A DNA stretch of 42,821 bases from a virus. The number at the start of each line of letters is the position of its first letter. Position 1 is the stretch's first letter. The DNA is taken from IMG/VR virus record IMGVR_UViG_3300049445_000174, positions 1 to 42,821 of that record; one strand, 5' to 3'. Both the position numbers and the translations under genes were made by a program. The notes beneath the pieces were generated by a model. It made no database searches. It was not told the DNA's origin and saw only the letters and a program-made list of their open reading frames with translations. This document shows positions 2,852 through 42,821 of this stretch, piece by piece.

Positions 2852-3041
2852 CGTGGCCGACATGATGATCAACGGGTTCCTTTGTGAGGCCTGCGGCGGC
2901 TACATCGACGGCGAGGAACCGGGCTATCCGCGCTACTGCAGCAAGGCCTGCGCACGGGATCGCGGGGCGCCATGGGCGCCTGAGCGCCACCAGCAGCGCG
3001 GCCCCCGTAAACACCGGCGACGGCGGCACGCGCATGGGTAA
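2844..3041 (+). CDS. Small zinc-finger protein B
   Basis: A 65-residue protein with CEACGGYIDG followed by PGYPRYCSKAC, a likely Cys4 zinc knuckle, and a very basic C-terminus (RKHRRRRHAHG) that could bind nucleic acid. It shares the CxxC-x3-IDG-x2-PG-x2-R-x-C pattern with the 1637-1864 product. The two bracket the QueD/DpdA pair. It overlaps the upstream and downstream genes by eight bases each. Function unknown; an accessory role in the modification module is only inference from position. Confidence 0.6.
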   Translation: MGDVADMMINGFLCEACGGYIDGEEPGYPRYCSKACARDRGAPWAPERHQQRGPRKHRRRRHAHG

Positions 3042-3294
3042 GCTGCTCGACGCCCTCAGCCCGCCCAGCGCCTACCGCGCCCGGCAGACCGACATCTGGG
3101 ATCAGATCACCGACCGCGTGGCAGGCGCCCTGACTGAGGCCGATCTGCGCGATGTCGAGGGCTGGCTGCTCGGCCAGGCGCTGAACATCCCGACGCAGTG
3201 GGAAGAACACATCATCGATCTGTTGGAGGCCAAGCGCGACGAGCTGGCCGCCGACAGCGTGGGCGCGATCCTGCGCGACCGCTTCGACTTCTGA
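3034..3294 (+). CDS. Hypothetical protein, 86 aa, helical and acidic
   Basis: The ATG at 3034 overlaps the zinc-finger stop by eight bases. The product is 86 residues, mostly amphipathic helix (ITDRVAGALTEADLRDVEGWL, HIIDLLEAKRDELAADSV), acidic, with no cysteines and no membrane segment. I do not recognise the family. It is the last gene before a 54-bp gap and the SSB-like gene, so it is probably part of the same early operon. Confidence 0.55.
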   Translation: MGKLLDALSPPSAYRARQTDIWDQITDRVAGALTEADLRDVEGWLLGQALNIPTQWEEHIIDLLEAKRDELAADSVGAILRDRFDF

Positions 3295-3348: not shown

Positions 3349-4020
3349 ATGGCCCTAGGGCTACCGGTGAACGATGGCGCCGACCGGACGCCAATCGTTA
3401 AATACGACGCCCGCGCCGGGCGCCTGTTCCGGGTTGACCGGACGCAGGCCGATGGATCGTGGGAGAGCAACACCGTCGAGATCACGCCGGTGTTTCAGGC
3501 GATCTTCGACATGGAGAATATCGAGCTGGGCTGGCTCTACTTCCCGACCAACGGCGCCCCCGAAATCGAAGTCGCGCCGTTCGGCCAGCCGATCCCGCCG
3601 AAGCCGAGCAAGAACCACCGACCGGGCTACAGGGTCCACCTTTTGCTCGGCAAGCAGAGCGGCGGCGACGTGCGCGAAATGGCGGCGAACGCCCAGATCA
3701 GCGTGAAGGGCATGGACGCCCTGCACGACGCCTATCTGGCGGGCGCGAAGGCCAACCCCGGCATGTTGCCGGTGGTGAAGCTGGCCAGGACCGAGGCGGT
3801 GGTCAGTCCCGGCAAGGACGCCAGCGGCAAGTCGGTGAGCAGCACCAACTACAGGCCGGTGTGGGAGATCACCAAGTTCGTGCCCCGCCCGCCCGAGCTG
3901 GTGGCCGGTCAGCCCGCCAACGACGCCCACGCGCAAGGCTCGCTTGAGCTGCGGACCACGCAGCAGGCGCAGCCCGAACCTGAGCCGGTGGCCGTGGCCA
4001 GCGTCGAAGACGACTTCTGA
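3349..4020 (+). CDS. Putative single-stranded DNA-binding protein
   Basis: A 223-residue protein starting at ATG 3349, behind a GAGGTG purine run; an upstream GTG at 3331 would add six residues with no spacing advantage. The N-terminal half is beta-rich (IVKYDARAGRLFRVDR, GWLYFPTNGAPEIEVAPFGQP). The C-terminus is a proline/glutamate-rich tail ending VASVEDDF, like the acidic, aromatic-tipped tails of phage and bacterial SSBs that dock replication partners. It lies immediately upstream of the PrimPol-helicase. The SSB call rests on this tail and context, not on a recognised OB-fold motif; other replication roles are possible. Confidence 0.5.
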   Translation: MALGLPVNDGADRTPIVKYDARAGRLFRVDRTQADGSWESNTVEITPVFQAIFDMENIELGWLYFPTNGAPEIEVAPFGQPIPPKPSKNHRPGYRVHLLLGKQSGGDVREMAANAQISVKGMDALHDAYLAGAKANPGMLPVVKLARTEAVVSPGKDASGKSVSSTNYRPVWEITKFVPRPPELVAGQPANDAHAQGSLELRTTQQAQPEPEPVAVASVEDDF

Positions 4021-10367: not shown

Positions 10368-10700
10368 CTAGCCGCGTCGGCGAGATTTCGGCGACCGGCT
10401 CTGTGGCGCGTTCCCATCGGGAGCGCAGTCGCCAGGGCCAGCCGAGGGGGCCTCAGCCGCGGCGACAGTGGCAGGGGATGGGGCGCCCTCAGGGCGCGCG
10501 CCCGCCAGCATAAGCGCCACCGCCAGCCGCACCGGGCCGGGGGGATCATAGGCGCCGGTTTCCCAACGCCGCACAGTCTGGCCGGGGTCGCGCCCGTCAA
10601 GCTGTAGTATGCGTCCGAGCTGTGAGGCGGTGAGCGGGCGCTTCAGGCCCCAGAGGCGCGCGAGCTGGGCGCGGGCGCGGGTGATATCGGCGCCGGTCAT
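10368..10700 (-). CDS. XRE-like helix-turn-helix protein
   Basis: A 110-residue leftward gene, last of the antisense island. Residues 1-65 (DITRARAQLARLWGLKRPLTASQLGRIL, then GQTVRRWETGAYDPPGPVRLAVALML) match the short XRE-type HTH proteins common in alphaproteobacterial phages, with the QTVRRWE recognition helix. The C-terminal 45 residues are low-complexity and likely disordered. It may regulate the island or the flanking late genes. A copy of the 75-bp intergenic element lies just upstream. Confidence 0.65.
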   Translation of the reverse strand: MTGADITRARAQLARLWGLKRPLTASQLGRILQLDGRDPGQTVRRWETGAYDPPGPVRLAVALMLAGARPEGAPSPATVAAAEAPSAGPGDCAPDGNAPQSRSPKSRRRG

Positions 10701-10737: not shown

Positions 10738-10812
10738 GGGGGCTCTCACGCCCTCAGGCCCGCCACCGTCACCGGCTCGGGCCTTCGGGCGCTCAGGCGC
10801 GATGTCAGGGGG
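10738..10812. repeat. 75-bp intergenic hairpin element, copy 1
   Basis: One of three related elements, each starting directly after the stop codon of a leftward gene. The arms CGCCCTCAGGCCCG (10749-10762) and CGGGCCTTCGGGCG (10778-10791) pair except for one 2x2 internal loop. The 15-base loop has a further CCG/CGG pair. The flank GCGCGATGTC is conserved in all copies. See copies 2 (11265) and 3 (12188). Confidence 0.85.
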
Positions 10813-11013
10813 TCAGTCGGCGAGGGTCGCCGGGCGTGCGTCAACTGCTAGCCCGCCACCGTCCCCTAGCAGGGCGGTTTCAAGGTCACGGATGACGGCG
10901 CGGACTTCGCCGATTAGGTCAGCGGCGGCGCCGTCTGAACGCATATCGCGTTCAAGCGTGCGCAGCGCCAGCACGCTGCAGCGTGAGGCGTCCAGCAGGC
11001 TGCGCCGGGTCAC
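10813..11013 (-). CDS. Hypothetical protein, 66 aa
   Basis: A leftward gene whose ATG overlaps the stop of the preceding gene by four bases (ATGA). The product is mostly helical (CSVLALRTLERDMRSDGAAADLIGEVRAVIRDLETALL) with no cysteine pair pattern or membrane span. I do not recognise it. Translational coupling and the position directly before element copy 1 support it as a real gene of the island. Confidence 0.5.
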   Translation of the reverse strand: MTRRSLLDASRCSVLALRTLERDMRSDGAAADLIGEVRAVIRDLETALLGDGGGLAVDARPATLAD

Positions 11014-11228
11014 GCTGCAGCCCCTTTCAGGATCAGGGCTAGGGCGCGGTCGCGTAGCCTATAGGGGTCAGGGCGCCCGGCTAGGCCTAGCGCCTCCATT
11101 GCGGCGGTCAGGGCGCTCTCAGGGTCATTCAGGCCCGCGTGGCGACGCATCAGGCCCGCGACTTGCTGCAGCACGGTTAGGGTGTGAAGTGATTTCGCCA
11201 CGGGTGTGGCGGATGTCGGGAGGGCCAT
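11010..11228 (-). CDS. Hypothetical protein, 72 aa
   Basis: I chose the ATG at 11228 because AAGGAA lies eight bases upstream; earlier in-frame ATGs at 11249 and 11261 would add residues read from the shared AGCTATGGAAA leader. The product is a helical, Ala/Leu-rich small protein (LTVLQQVAGLMRRHAGL, ALTAAMEALGL). Function unknown. It is third in the leftward island, after element copy 2. Confidence 0.5.
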   Translation of the reverse strand: MALPTSATPVAKSLHTLTVLQQVAGLMRRHAGLNDPESALTAAMEALGLAGRPDPYRLRDRALALILKGAAA

Positions 11229-11264
11229 TGCGGCAGGTTCCTTTTCCATAGCTAGGGGCACTAT

Positions 11265-11339
11265 GCCCCCACGCCCTCAGGCCCGCCACCGTCACCGGCT
11301 CGGGCCTTCGGGCGCACGGGGCGCGATGTCGGCGGGGGG
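11265..11339. repeat. 75-bp intergenic hairpin element, copy 2
   Basis: Arms at 11272-11285 and 11301-11314 are identical to those of copy 1, with the same 15-base loop. The flank GCGCGATGTC is conserved, while the base just inside it differs from copy 1 (CACGGG against CTCAG). The element begins directly at the stop codon of the 271-residue gene. Confidence 0.85.
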
Positions 11340-12155
11340 CTAGATCAGCGGCGCTTGATCCGGGTGGCGGAAGGCGACCCCTGCCCGCCAGTCGAGGGGG
11401 TCAGGCGCGTCGGGATCATCCTCGCGCAGCTCTTCCGCCTTGTCGGCGCGCAGCTCTTCCCGCGCCGCTTCGAAAGCTGGCCAATCGACGGCGTTTTCGC
11501 GGGCGCTATCAAGCTGGCCACAGTCGTCAGCTAGGCGGGAATAAATCGTCCAGCCGATTTCTTCCCCGTGCGGGTCGCGGGCCTCGGCGATGTCGAGGCA
11601 GGCGCGCAACAGTGTCCCTAGCTCATTGTGATCCCACTCGCGCAGCGGCTGGGCCAGCCATTCGTCTAGGTCGGCGCTGTAGTGCGAGGCGAACCCGGAA
11701 CGCGACGTGAAGCGCTCACGGATCACGGCGCCTAGCTCTTCGTGGCCCTCGGCTTTGGACATGGCGAAGAGGGCGCGGGCGGCGCTCACCGGGATGTCGG
11801 CGAAGATGCGATCCGTCTCAAAATTGTATTCCCGAGGGGATGTCAGGGCCTCGAATTTGAGGCGCAGCGGGAAGCCGAGGCGTTCGGACGCCTCATCGCT
11901 GAAAGCGTCGGCGTAGAGGGCGGCGACGGCCTGATGTGCGGCGCCGTAATCGGTGTGGCGGTAGAGCAATTCGCACAGCTCCGAGGCGGTCAGGCGCAGC
12001 GCTTCCGGGTAGGACATTTCGCCCCCCTCGCGTTCGTTTTCGGTCGCCTCCCATTCGCAGAATTGCTCTTCCTGATGGTCAATCTCGCCGCTGTATTTCG
12101 AGCCGTAGAACCCCTCAAAAGGGATGTTGATATTCAGATAGGTCGGCGCGGTCAT
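11340..12155 (-). CDS. Conserved-looking phage/plasmid protein of unknown function, 271 aa
   Basis: An acidic 271-residue protein beginning TYLNINIPFEGFYGSKYSGEIDH. The opening resembles proteins carried by proteobacterial plasmids and phages that start with a similar FYxSxYSxxID segment, but I know no function. The middle has Tyr- and Ala-rich helices (HTDYGAAHQAVAALYADAF), and the C-terminus is strongly acidic (EELREDDPDAPDPLDW), as in some DNA mimics; this is not enough to call antirestriction. The leader AGCTATGGAAA precedes the start, and that ATG would make a 5-codon peptide whose stop overlaps the real ATG. Confidence 0.65.
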   Translation of the reverse strand: MTAPTYLNINIPFEGFYGSKYSGEIDHQEEQFCEWEATENEREGGEMSYPEALRLTASELCELLYRHTDYGAAHQAVAALYADAFSDEASERLGFPLRLKFEALTSPREYNFETDRIFADIPVSAARALFAMSKAEGHEELGAVIRERFTSRSGFASHYSADLDEWLAQPLREWDHNELGTLLRACLDIAEARDPHGEEIGWTIYSRLADDCGQLDSARENAVDWPAFEAAREELRADKAEELREDDPDAPDPLDWRAGVAFRHPDQAPLI

Positions 12156-12187
12156 GTTCGGTTTTCCATAGCTGTTGACGGCCCCTC

Positions 12188-12264
12188 AGGGGGCTCTACG
12201 CCCTCAGGCGGGCCACCCTTCCGGGTTCCCGCCTTTGGGCGCTGCAGCGCGATGTCAGGGGCGT
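12188..12264. repeat. 75-bp intergenic hairpin element, copy 3 (covarying)
   Basis: Arms CGCCCTCAGGCGGG (12199-12212) and CCCGCCTTTGGGCG (12228-12241). Against copies 1 and 2, CCG has become GGG on the left and CGG has become CCC-type on the right, so pairing is kept although the bases differ. The loop pair G-C has also become C-G. The flank GCGCGATGTC is conserved. It starts at the stop codon of the 12265-12606 gene. Confidence 0.85.
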
Positions 12265-12606
12265 CTAGCAGGCGCACAGCCTGCCAATGACGGCGCGTGC
12301 GGCGGTGACCGCCTCGGCGCACATATCGGGCCAATAGTCGCCCGCTGTTACGAAGTCGGCGGCGCTGCTGTAGCAGCAGCCCCCCAGATAGTCGGACGCC
12401 AATTCGACGCCCTCGCGGCTGGCGCAAACCTCAACCGCAAACCAGTCATAGCGCCCGCTGTGGATGTCGGCGCAGAGCTGCGCGTCTGCGTCGTCGTCGC
12501 CGCTGCAAAAGTGGCCTTCGGGCGCGTCGAATTCGGGAAGGCGATAGGTTGCGAGGGTGAAGCCGTCGCGGTTCTCTACGTGGATCAATTCGCGGTCGCG
12601 GGTCAT
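12265..12606 (-). CDS. Conserved-looking small phage protein, 113 aa
   Basis: First gene of the leftward island. The ATG at 12606 is chosen by analogy with the 271-residue gene: both have AGCTATGGAAA-CCGA-CATGACC, with GGAAA as ribosome site; an ATG at 12618 in that leader would add four residues. The product has DYLGGCCYSSAADFVTAGDYWPDMCAEA near the C-terminus, with several cysteines, and an acidic GDDDADAQLCADI centre. I recall similar proteins in proteobacterial phages and plasmids, without known function. Confidence 0.6.
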   Translation of the reverse strand: MTRDRELIHVENRDGFTLATYRLPEFDAPEGHFCSGDDDADAQLCADIHSGRYDWFAVEVCASREGVELASDYLGGCCYSSAADFVTAGDYWPDMCAEAVTAARAVIGRLCAC

Positions 12607-12622
12607 GTCGGTTTCCATAGCT

Positions 12623-13114
12623 GTGGCGCCGGTTAACCCGGCTGAGCCGTCTACTTACAGCAAAATGACGTAACCACAAACCCTTTTCGTGGATGATGGT
12701 GAACGTGCGCCTTACGTGCGAGCGCGCGAGGCGCAGGGGGCGGATGTGCTGTCGGGACGTGGGGCAGATGGTCGCCTAGAACGCTGCCACAGCCTCACTA
12801 GCCACGGTTTCCGCCGCGCGCTCGTAACTCGCCGCCTGGCGTCCCGATTTTCTGACCGGCTCTCGACTGGCCGCGGGTCGGCGCAGGTGCTGCCAAGGCA
12901 GCTACACTCCTGAGGGGAACGCCGCCGTGATGTGCGGTTTCCCCCTCCGTTTCCCCTTCCCGCTTTGCCTTGACTGGCCGCGGGGCACGCTCTCACCCCC
13001 CGCGCCATGTCGCCCGCCTCTGCCCCATCGGCTGCGCCTCGGGTCGCCCTCAGAAAACGTCGCTTGCCGACCGGGGGTAGCCGGTTTTCAAGGCAGGGGG
13101 GGCGGGGGCTGTTA
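12623..13114. other. Non-coding region with promoter and hairpins
   Basis: About 490 bases with no supported gene between the divergent island and the next rightward genes. The left edge has the dyad GCCGG-TTAAC-CCGGC near 12628-12642 and must contain the island promoter. Further right are GCTGCC-AA-GGCAGC (12889-12902), a GGGGAA/TTTCCCC hairpin near 12914-12946, and an 8-bp pair TGCCTTGA (12966-12973) / TCAAGGCA (13088-13095) enclosing about 115 bases. A structured leader or small RNA is possible. No tRNA was seen. Confidence 0.45.
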
Positions 13115-42302: not shown

Positions 42303-42821
42303 TCAGCTTAGTGGCAGATTGCCCGGCTGACCTCCTGGCGCCATGGCGATCACCCGCGCCGCCCATGTCACCCGCTGGTCAAACAGGGTGGCCTGCGGTT
42401 CGGCGGCAAGGTGAAAGCAGCCCTCAACTTCCGTCCAGATCAGCCTGCGCACCCGCAGCGCAATGTCGTCGGCGTAGCCGGTCAGGCCGACCACGCAGAG
42501 CAGCCCGTCGAGATCGCGGGTGAGCGCGCCCTGCGGCTTTTCGAAGTAGGCCAGCCAGCCGGTCAGCAGCGGGCTGATGGTGTCTTCCGGCAGCACCTGC
42601 ACTACCCGCAGCAGGGATGAACCACCGTCTATGACGGGGCTTACATAGACGCCGTTGTGCTGGCCATCGACAGCCAGCAGCGGGACGTTGTGATGCTCGC
42701 CCTGCTGGCGCCCGTAGAGCAGCCATTCCGGCGACGTGTGGAAGTGCGCGGCATACTGCGCCGCCCGCCTGGCGGGCAGGAAGCGCTCGGCCTTTTCGTG
42801 CATGGCGTAGGTGGCAATCGC
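42303..42821 (-). CDS. CI-like phage repressor, C-terminal part (5' end continues at window start)
   Basis: The frame is open off the right edge and continues at 303 of the window; joined, it has 201 residues. After the HTH, residues 75-190 resemble the S24/LexA-like dimer domain of phage repressors: VPLLAVDG, then EDTISPLLTGWLAYFE, LCVVGLTG, LRVRRLIW and VTWAARVIAMAP. At the place of the usual G-D-S-M catalytic serine there is Thr110, and at the catalytic lysine Arg154, so RecA-stimulated self-cleavage looks lost. An internal ATG at 42803 would give a truncated protein without the first helix. Confidence 0.8.
   Translation of the reverse strand, partial: AIATYAMHEKAERFLPARRAAQYAAHFHTSPEWLLYGRQQGEHHNVPLLAVDGQHNGVYVSPVIDGGSSLLRVVQVLPEDTISPLLTGWLAYFEKPQGALTRDLDGLLCVVGLTGYADDIALRVRRLIWTEVEGCFHLAAEPQATLFDQRVTWAARVIAMAPGGQPGNLPLS
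42606..42821. repeat. Terminal direct repeat, right copy
   Basis: It matches 1-216 with the single difference at 42733 (G) against 128 (A). See the left copy. It covers codons of the repressor HTH region, and the G gives Ser59 instead of Leu59. Confidence 0.9.

Follow-up and report, generated by a model that had tools for sequence, protein, structure and literature searches.

What are the three related hairpins that lie between the small leftward genes of this phage contig, and do they work as RNA, as DNA, or as the mark of a system that moves genes? The window, meaning the whole stretch of DNA analyzed here, is a viral contig of 42,821 bases. Its first and last 216 bases are identical (1-216 = 42606-42821), as in a circular map or a terminal repeat, and the window probably represents a complete circular map. 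The encoded proteins include a P22-type portal (PF16510), a Phage_capsid_3 major capsid protein, a terminase, a Prim-Pol/AAA protein, and a tyrosine integrase, and the window is read as a temperate P22-portal-type phage. The closest isolated relatives of the portal protein include phages of Paracoccus and Rhizobium, at 34% identity, and an alphaproteobacterial host is inferred from them as probable. No tRNA or tmRNA was found in the window.

Five small leftward genes, flanked by the terminase and the portal, form an operon. Its features are given below in the order of transcription, with bit scores from two covariance models (R1 and R2) that are described later.

12651..12679, minus strand: putative operator-promoter of the operon, TTGTGG...TTACGTCA-TTT-TGCTGTAA (pattern scan, inference only)
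12265..12618, minus strand: gene 1 (ORF), 117 aa, PHROG match to phrog_5644, function unknown
12192..12264, minus strand: element copy W3, between gene 1 and gene 2, core 12250-12198 (R2 75.9 bits)
11340..12155, minus strand: gene 2 (ORF), 271 aa, PHROG match to phrog_37559, function unknown
11265..11339, minus strand: element copy W2, between gene 2 and gene 3, core 11324-11271 (R2 76.8 bits)
11010..11228, minus strand: gene 3, termed g83, 72 aa (MALPTS...), conserved in the element-bearing podovirus group (alignment A4, 17 viral loci)
10813..11013, minus strand: gene 4 (ORF), 66 aa
10742..10812, minus strand: element copy W1, between gene 4 and gene 5, core 10800-10748 (R1 95.2 bits, R2 83.6 bits)
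10368..10700, minus strand: gene 5, the last gene (ORF, relatives), 110 aa, helix-turn-helix-like by eye and conserved in the group

The leader of gene 1 has no element, and there is none at the operon end 3' of gene 5. A 4-nt overlap couples genes 3 and 4 translationally, and their junction is likewise without an element. No Pfam match was obtained for gene 5. Relatives of the gene 2 protein occur in 57 viral contigs, and the phrog_37559 family is found across many unrelated phages, including those of Curvibacter, Acinetobacter, Cellulophaga, and Bacteroides.

The putative operator-promoter has no match to the sigma-70 consensus. It is related to a palindrome, TACGTCA-N3-TGACGTA, that in relatives is spaced like a promoter spacer behind TTG(C/T)A. 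Sites of this type lie at 12679 (minus) in the window, at 1589 and 933 in contig L131, at 1208 and 325 in L132, at 1867 in L208, and at 2143 in L213. The palindrome is likely to be the operator-promoter of the element-bearing operon, an assignment resting on a pattern scan only. Separately, three leftward genes of the window have exact copies of AGCTATGGAAA ahead of their start codons (11243-11253, 12163-12173, and 12612-12622, minus), a start-associated box that recalls the SAS of mycobacteriophages.

The initial annotation described three copies of an element with a compensating hairpin, each at the stop codon of a leftward gene, and the copies are indeed found there. All three are on the minus strand in gene sense, directly 3' of the stop codons of the ORFs at 10813-11013, 11340-12155, and 12265-12618. 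In W1 the post-stop spacer is followed by a CATC box, a mini-hairpin (H0, GCGC-CTGA-GCGC) 12 nt from the stop codon, the main hairpin (H1) with a GTGA loop, and GGCGT. W2 has H0 GCGC-CCCGT-GCGC 15 nt from the stop codon and again a GTGA loop in H1, and most relatives carry an element at the orthologous position. W3 has H0 GCGC-TGCA-GCGC at 14 nt and an H1 with compensated arms and a GGAA loop. Copies 1 and 2 share 93% identity over 56 nt, and the identity between copies 1 and 3 is 68%. The compensatory changes noted initially are correct, but the "several" arm pairs amount to two (CC/GG to GG/CC) together with the loop-closing pair (G-C to C-G); there is one further change, from G-U to A-U. 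The flank GCGCGATGTC is conserved, as had been claimed, but is really CATC plus the 5' arm of H0, an upstream mini-hairpin that had been missed. On the gene-sense strand the three copies fold more stably than dinucleotide shuffles (z about -2.8 to -3.1). However, the covariation among them was equaled by 21 of 500 shuffles, so the window alone is only suggestive.

Model R1, built from the three window copies, found further copies in a relative with 77% terminase identity. A protein search with g83 (alignment A4) led to 17 viral loci, most of them with an element directly before g83, and a second covariance model, R2, together with pattern scans added further members. The family so assembled comprises 45 copies in 19 metagenomic phage contigs (covariance models, E<=1e-4), and beyond these at least two weaker copies lie at expected positions (L230 6985-7052 and L131 94-151). 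An absence of further copies would have refuted the original proposal; dozens exist, with pairing kept through change.

Sixteen of the 19 contigs belong to the same P22-portal-type phages as the window. The others, L229 (VapE-like protein, AAA_24), L230 (Terminase_6), and L030 (intein-bearing terminase), are other phage types, and no homologue of the window terminase, portal, or g83 was found in their available sequence. In L030, the phage with an intein in its large terminase, three copies of a promoter-like leader, GGGCAAATCGCCCTCTATATA...ACGCCATG, were observed at 2700, 2105, and 1325 (minus). In fifteen portal/terminase relatives without a detected g83, several of which are fragments, no element reached E<=0.01. 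In the podovirus group g83 accompanies the element, but its candidacy as a required partner protein was rejected, since L229, L230, and L030 bear the element and lack g83.

These searches have limits. The pattern scans reach near relatives only, covariance E-values are rough, and gene calls are simple ORF choices. The last viral pattern scan set the gap after TGGCSGG at 5 instead of 6 nt and so under-samples the family, although it still found L229 and L230. A loose pattern, GACATCGCGC-N-GCGCCC, returned 120 stretches from viral contigs, mostly by chance, and yielded one member, L030. All element-bearing sequences are metagenomic contigs whose hosts are unknown.

The initial annotation knew of no named family that fits, and Rfam provides none. 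The window had no match in Rfam 15 at gathering thresholds, the best sub-threshold match at a permissive threshold was to a trypanosome snoRNA model (20.4 bits against the 35 needed), and the elements of L205 had no Rfam match. No copy was found by BLAST in GenBank phage records or PLSDB plasmids, and a strict pattern matched none of 84,980 species genomes of bacteria and archaea. Within the reach of these searches, which covered bacterial genomes by strict pattern only, the family is phage-specific. The few literature searches made found no description of the element. The element is a new, previously uncatalogued RNA family, most likely to be placed by function among the known intercistronic mRNA elements.

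In gene sense the element runs from the stop codon through a short C-rich spacer, CATC, H0, CC, an internal loop (CGA or CAA opposite GAA), H1, GAAGGCGU, and an optional hairpin H2 to the ribosome-binding site and start codon. H0 is a 4-bp mini-hairpin with a loop of 3-7 nt. The 7-bp stem of H1 is AGGCCCG/CGGGCCU in most copies, with AGCCCGG/CCGGGCU, AGGCGGG/CCCGCCU, and others also represented. H1 has in addition an asymmetric conserved bulge, A opposite GG, and a 4-bp tip (GCCG/CGGU, GCGC/GCGU, AGCG/CGCU, and others), and its loop is of the GNRA type in 24 of the 35 hand-aligned copies. H2, which lies before the ribosome-binding site, is variable and present in about two thirds of copies (mean z -0.9); it was rejected as a conserved part and is treated as optional, as roughly a quarter to a third of copies lack it.

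Across the 45 copies, 10 pairs of H1 have changed on both sides, giving 89 compensated cells against a shuffled mean of 25.9, with none of 500 shuffles reaching as many. The covariation score is 0.345, compared with 0.103 for shuffled and at most 0.063 for slid alignments. Since the slid controls retain the relatedness of the copies, phylogeny alone is not the explanation. One caveat on the 45-copy figures is that R2 already contains this structure and is biased towards it; the alignment to R1, a model from three copies only, already gives 9 pairs and 57 cells. In the hand alignment 139 of 140 cells of H0 are paired (0 of 2000 shuffles), with four arm types: GCGC/GCGC, GCGG/CCGC, GCGA/TCGC, and GGGG/CCCC. 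H0 is in neither R1 nor R2, so the evidence for its pairing is independent of both models. The outer stem of H1 is paired in 80% of cells and is largely invariant, with few compensatory changes. It shares about 3 nt with H0, and in folding predictions the two compete with a balance that differs between copies. The selection for a folded structure that had been proposed is thus upheld by the two-sided changes, and the element is, with near certainty, a structured RNA.

Whether RNA or DNA is the folded species had been left undecided; the alternative can now be narrowed to gene-sense RNA on the grounds of G-U pairs, loop type, and z-scores. Thirty copies have G-U as the closing pair of the tip, and 14 have A-U or G-C. 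On the opposite strand G-U would read A-C, and only on the gene strand do the loops fit GNRA. The sense fold is better than the antisense fold in 31 of 39 copies (mean z -2.6 versus -2.0), and every copy is oriented with its flanking genes.

The element is anchored to the upstream stop codon, a regularity that was overlooked in the initial annotation. By script, H0 begins 12-15 nt from the stop codon in 38 of the 45 copies; correction of one ORF raises the count to 39, since the gene actually upstream of copy E3 ends at a distance of 13 nt. Spacing to the next start codon scatters, from 21 to 57 nt in nearly all copies. The neighboring genes fall into 41 upstream and 29 downstream protein families, showing that the element is not tied to particular genes. 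Junctions without an element within the operons are mostly overlaps or gaps of -4 to 26 nt, so that elements separate blocks of one to three coupled genes. There are three apparent exceptions in L229, with gaps of 74-111 nt and no element, and one element-free gap of 85 nt in L205; for the larger element-free gaps in L218 and L216, genes missed in the calls are the probable explanation. Two large gaps in L213 hold divergent copies.

In two L213 copies (2980-3056 and 3880-3964) a long extra hairpin, AACCATCCC...GGGATGGTT, stands before H1 in place of H0. The clearest exception to the spacing rule is copy D1 (L132 235-325; L133 783-873), in which a promoter-like palindrome lies between the stop codon and the element; here the element may begin a transcript. 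A conserved hairpin, GGCGGCGCCGGTAACGGTCGCCGCC, with a GTAA tip like that of the element, was seen near a T-rich stretch in L205 (5452-5483) and L214 (2199-2227) and is possibly a terminator.

Stop anchoring sets the element apart from inverted repeats of Cluster K mycobacteriophages. There, ESAS/SAS occur upstream of some phage genes, are conserved by gene family, and have no known function; ESAS are 17-bp inverted repeats tied to a 13-bp start-associated sequence, GGGATAGGAGCCC, at the start codon (PMC3203893). The spacing of the element is fixed to the upstream stop codon and not to the start codon, and the start-site leaders differ (read against PMC3203893). The closer analogue of SAS in the window is AGCTATGGAAA, before the starts, and not the element.

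With function inferred and no expression data at hand, the reading we favor, though we hold it at somewhat less than even confidence, is that the element is a cis-acting mRNA punctuation of the phage operon, like stop-proximal REPs or the intercistronic processing sites of T7. When a stop codon occupies the A site, the ribosome covers about 10 nt beyond it, which means that H0 begins just outside the terminating ribosome. The RNA would have to fold, or stay folded, while the upstream gene is being translated. The element would then divide the polycistronic message into blocks, separated by stopping 3'-5' exonucleases, by cutting with a host double-strand ribonuclease, or both, and ribosomes would be held back or decoupled at the junction. 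Each block of coupled genes would in this way acquire its own mRNA stability and translation level. A choice among exonuclease blocking, endonuclease cutting, and ribosome control cannot be made from the present sequence data, and a role in RNA processing or stability remains the leading guess, as yet untested.

The REP/BIME sequences of enterobacteria are multicopy GC-rich extragenic imperfect hairpins that act on mRNA stability and translation, and a translation-linked class lies <=15 nt from upstream stop codons (PMC12306157). The element is likewise a multicopy extragenic imperfect hairpin and meets the <=15 nt criterion, with 39 of 45 copies at 12-15 nt. Unlike REP, it is confined to one phage operon and always oriented in gene sense; it has two or three stems, a conserved 5' box, and a GNRA loop, and its stop spacing is much tighter. 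No sequence relation to REP was seen; homology and a link to the RAYT transposase are untested.

Phage T7 has a set of intercistronic RNase III sites, R0.3 to R1.3, that includes R1.1. Cutting at R1.1 yields 47 + 13 nt (PMC4858673). Like these sites, the elements are repeated structured RNAs of ∼60 nt between the genes of a phage polycistronic transcript. They differ in that H1 is shorter in continuous duplex, its loop and bulge have a conserved sequence, and cleavage has not been shown. Against the about two near-continuous helical turns of an RNase III duplex, H1 offers 17 modelled pairs, interrupted by two internal loops and with an outer stem that is 80% paired. Its canonical pairs number only about 15, which seems few for RNase III. 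Processing by this enzyme would need neither so strict a GG bulge nor the conserved GAAGGCGU, and these hint at a specific protein or polymerase partner.

The main rival, which we consider unlikely but which is not excluded, is an antitermination RNA that binds the polymerase or a factor. In the nut site of phage λ a GNRA-like hairpin follows a conserved box. The putRNA of HK022, about 70 nt long, forms two stem-loops, includes non-canonical pairs, and needs no protein partner to act (PMC9378689). By analogy, H0 and H1 would bind the elongating RNA polymerase or a Nus-like complex and suppress Rho-dependent polarity at untranslated junctions. The element is similar to put in size, is phage-borne, and has two adjacent stem-loops with non-canonical internal loops. 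Its conserved unpaired CATC, A/GG, and GAAGGCGU point to recognition by a specific partner. Rho would also, by inference, act in untranslated gaps of GC-rich genomes, where the element lies. However, put and nut lie in early leaders, near the promoter and before the first gene, whereas copies of the element recur at internal junctions and none precedes gene 1 of the window. No boxA is apparent, and an element that persists with the polymerase would leave the tight link to the stop codon unexplained.

The predicted competition between H0 and the outer stem of H1 raises the possibility of a conformational switch. In one form, which is speculative and to which we give only slight credence, the element would belong to an undescribed class of phage RNA that senses the state of the upstream gene. 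The exclusive H0 and outer stem would report a finished ribosome and set the fate of the next block, whether passing Rho, cleavage, or translation, with a host factor at the A/GG bulge, and the element would be exchangeable among unrelated phages. A second, ribosome-responsive form seems doubtful on present evidence. It holds that a ribosome near the upstream stop codon would cover H0 and free its 3' arm to close the outer stem, changing access to H2 and the next ribosome-binding site, such that translation of one block controls the next. H0 does lie at the edge of the terminating ribosome, and the shared ∼3 nt make the two pairings mutually exclusive in prediction, with a balance that varies by copy. 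Compensatory changes are found in both, although few in the outer stem, and this stem varies little and is unpaired in 20% of cells, so a role for it is weakly supported. The presumed output, H2, is missing in about a quarter to a third of copies, and alternative pairings are common in GC-rich sequence.

That the element might be the mark of a cassette-moving system, with attC-like or REP-like recombination sites exchanging gene blocks between phages, was suggested at the outset and now looks improbable. As with integron attC, copies come right after gene stop codons along an array of genes that all run one way, in a single orientation, with structure kept over sequence. Gene content between copies is very variable, the element is found in unrelated phages, and copies in the same genome are more alike (0.83) than copies at orthologous positions (0.75), as in concerted evolution. 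This support is indirect only, in that variable gene blocks are punctuated, and homologous recombination at repeats may be a by-product. The observation that integron attC ends are lacking holds for the family: none of 41 copies has the core pair RYYYAAC...GTTRRRY of the R and L boxes. Moreover, compensatory changes with G-U pairs and GNRA loops indicate selection at the RNA level. No IntI integrase was found in the window, and the only recombinase found is an ordinary phage-type tyrosine integrase with an arm-binding domain, also present in element-free relatives. The attC reading thus fails for want of core sites and of a linked IntI.

An intrinsic terminator or attenuator between genes, as a strong GC-rich hairpin in intergenic gaps might suggest, is highly improbable and fails its own test, since there is no U-tract (the 10 nt after the stem average 2.4 T, with 4 at most and fewer beyond), no element was called terminator-like, and the conserved distal genes would be shut off if every junction held such an element.

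The geometry of the element, at 12-15 nt from the stop codon, gives a sharp and testable prediction about the terminating ribosome. The covariance alignment permits direct searches for the family. Small unknown genes make up the operons that the element marks, and the operon in the window lies next to a temperate phage's terminase. That such operons are accessory or anti-defence modules is plausible, although speculative. Conserved structured RNAs have rarely been described inside phage operons rather than in leaders. The combination of strong covariation, a fixed distance from the stop codon, and occurrence in several phage types makes this one a handle on how messages are partitioned in GC-rich hosts.
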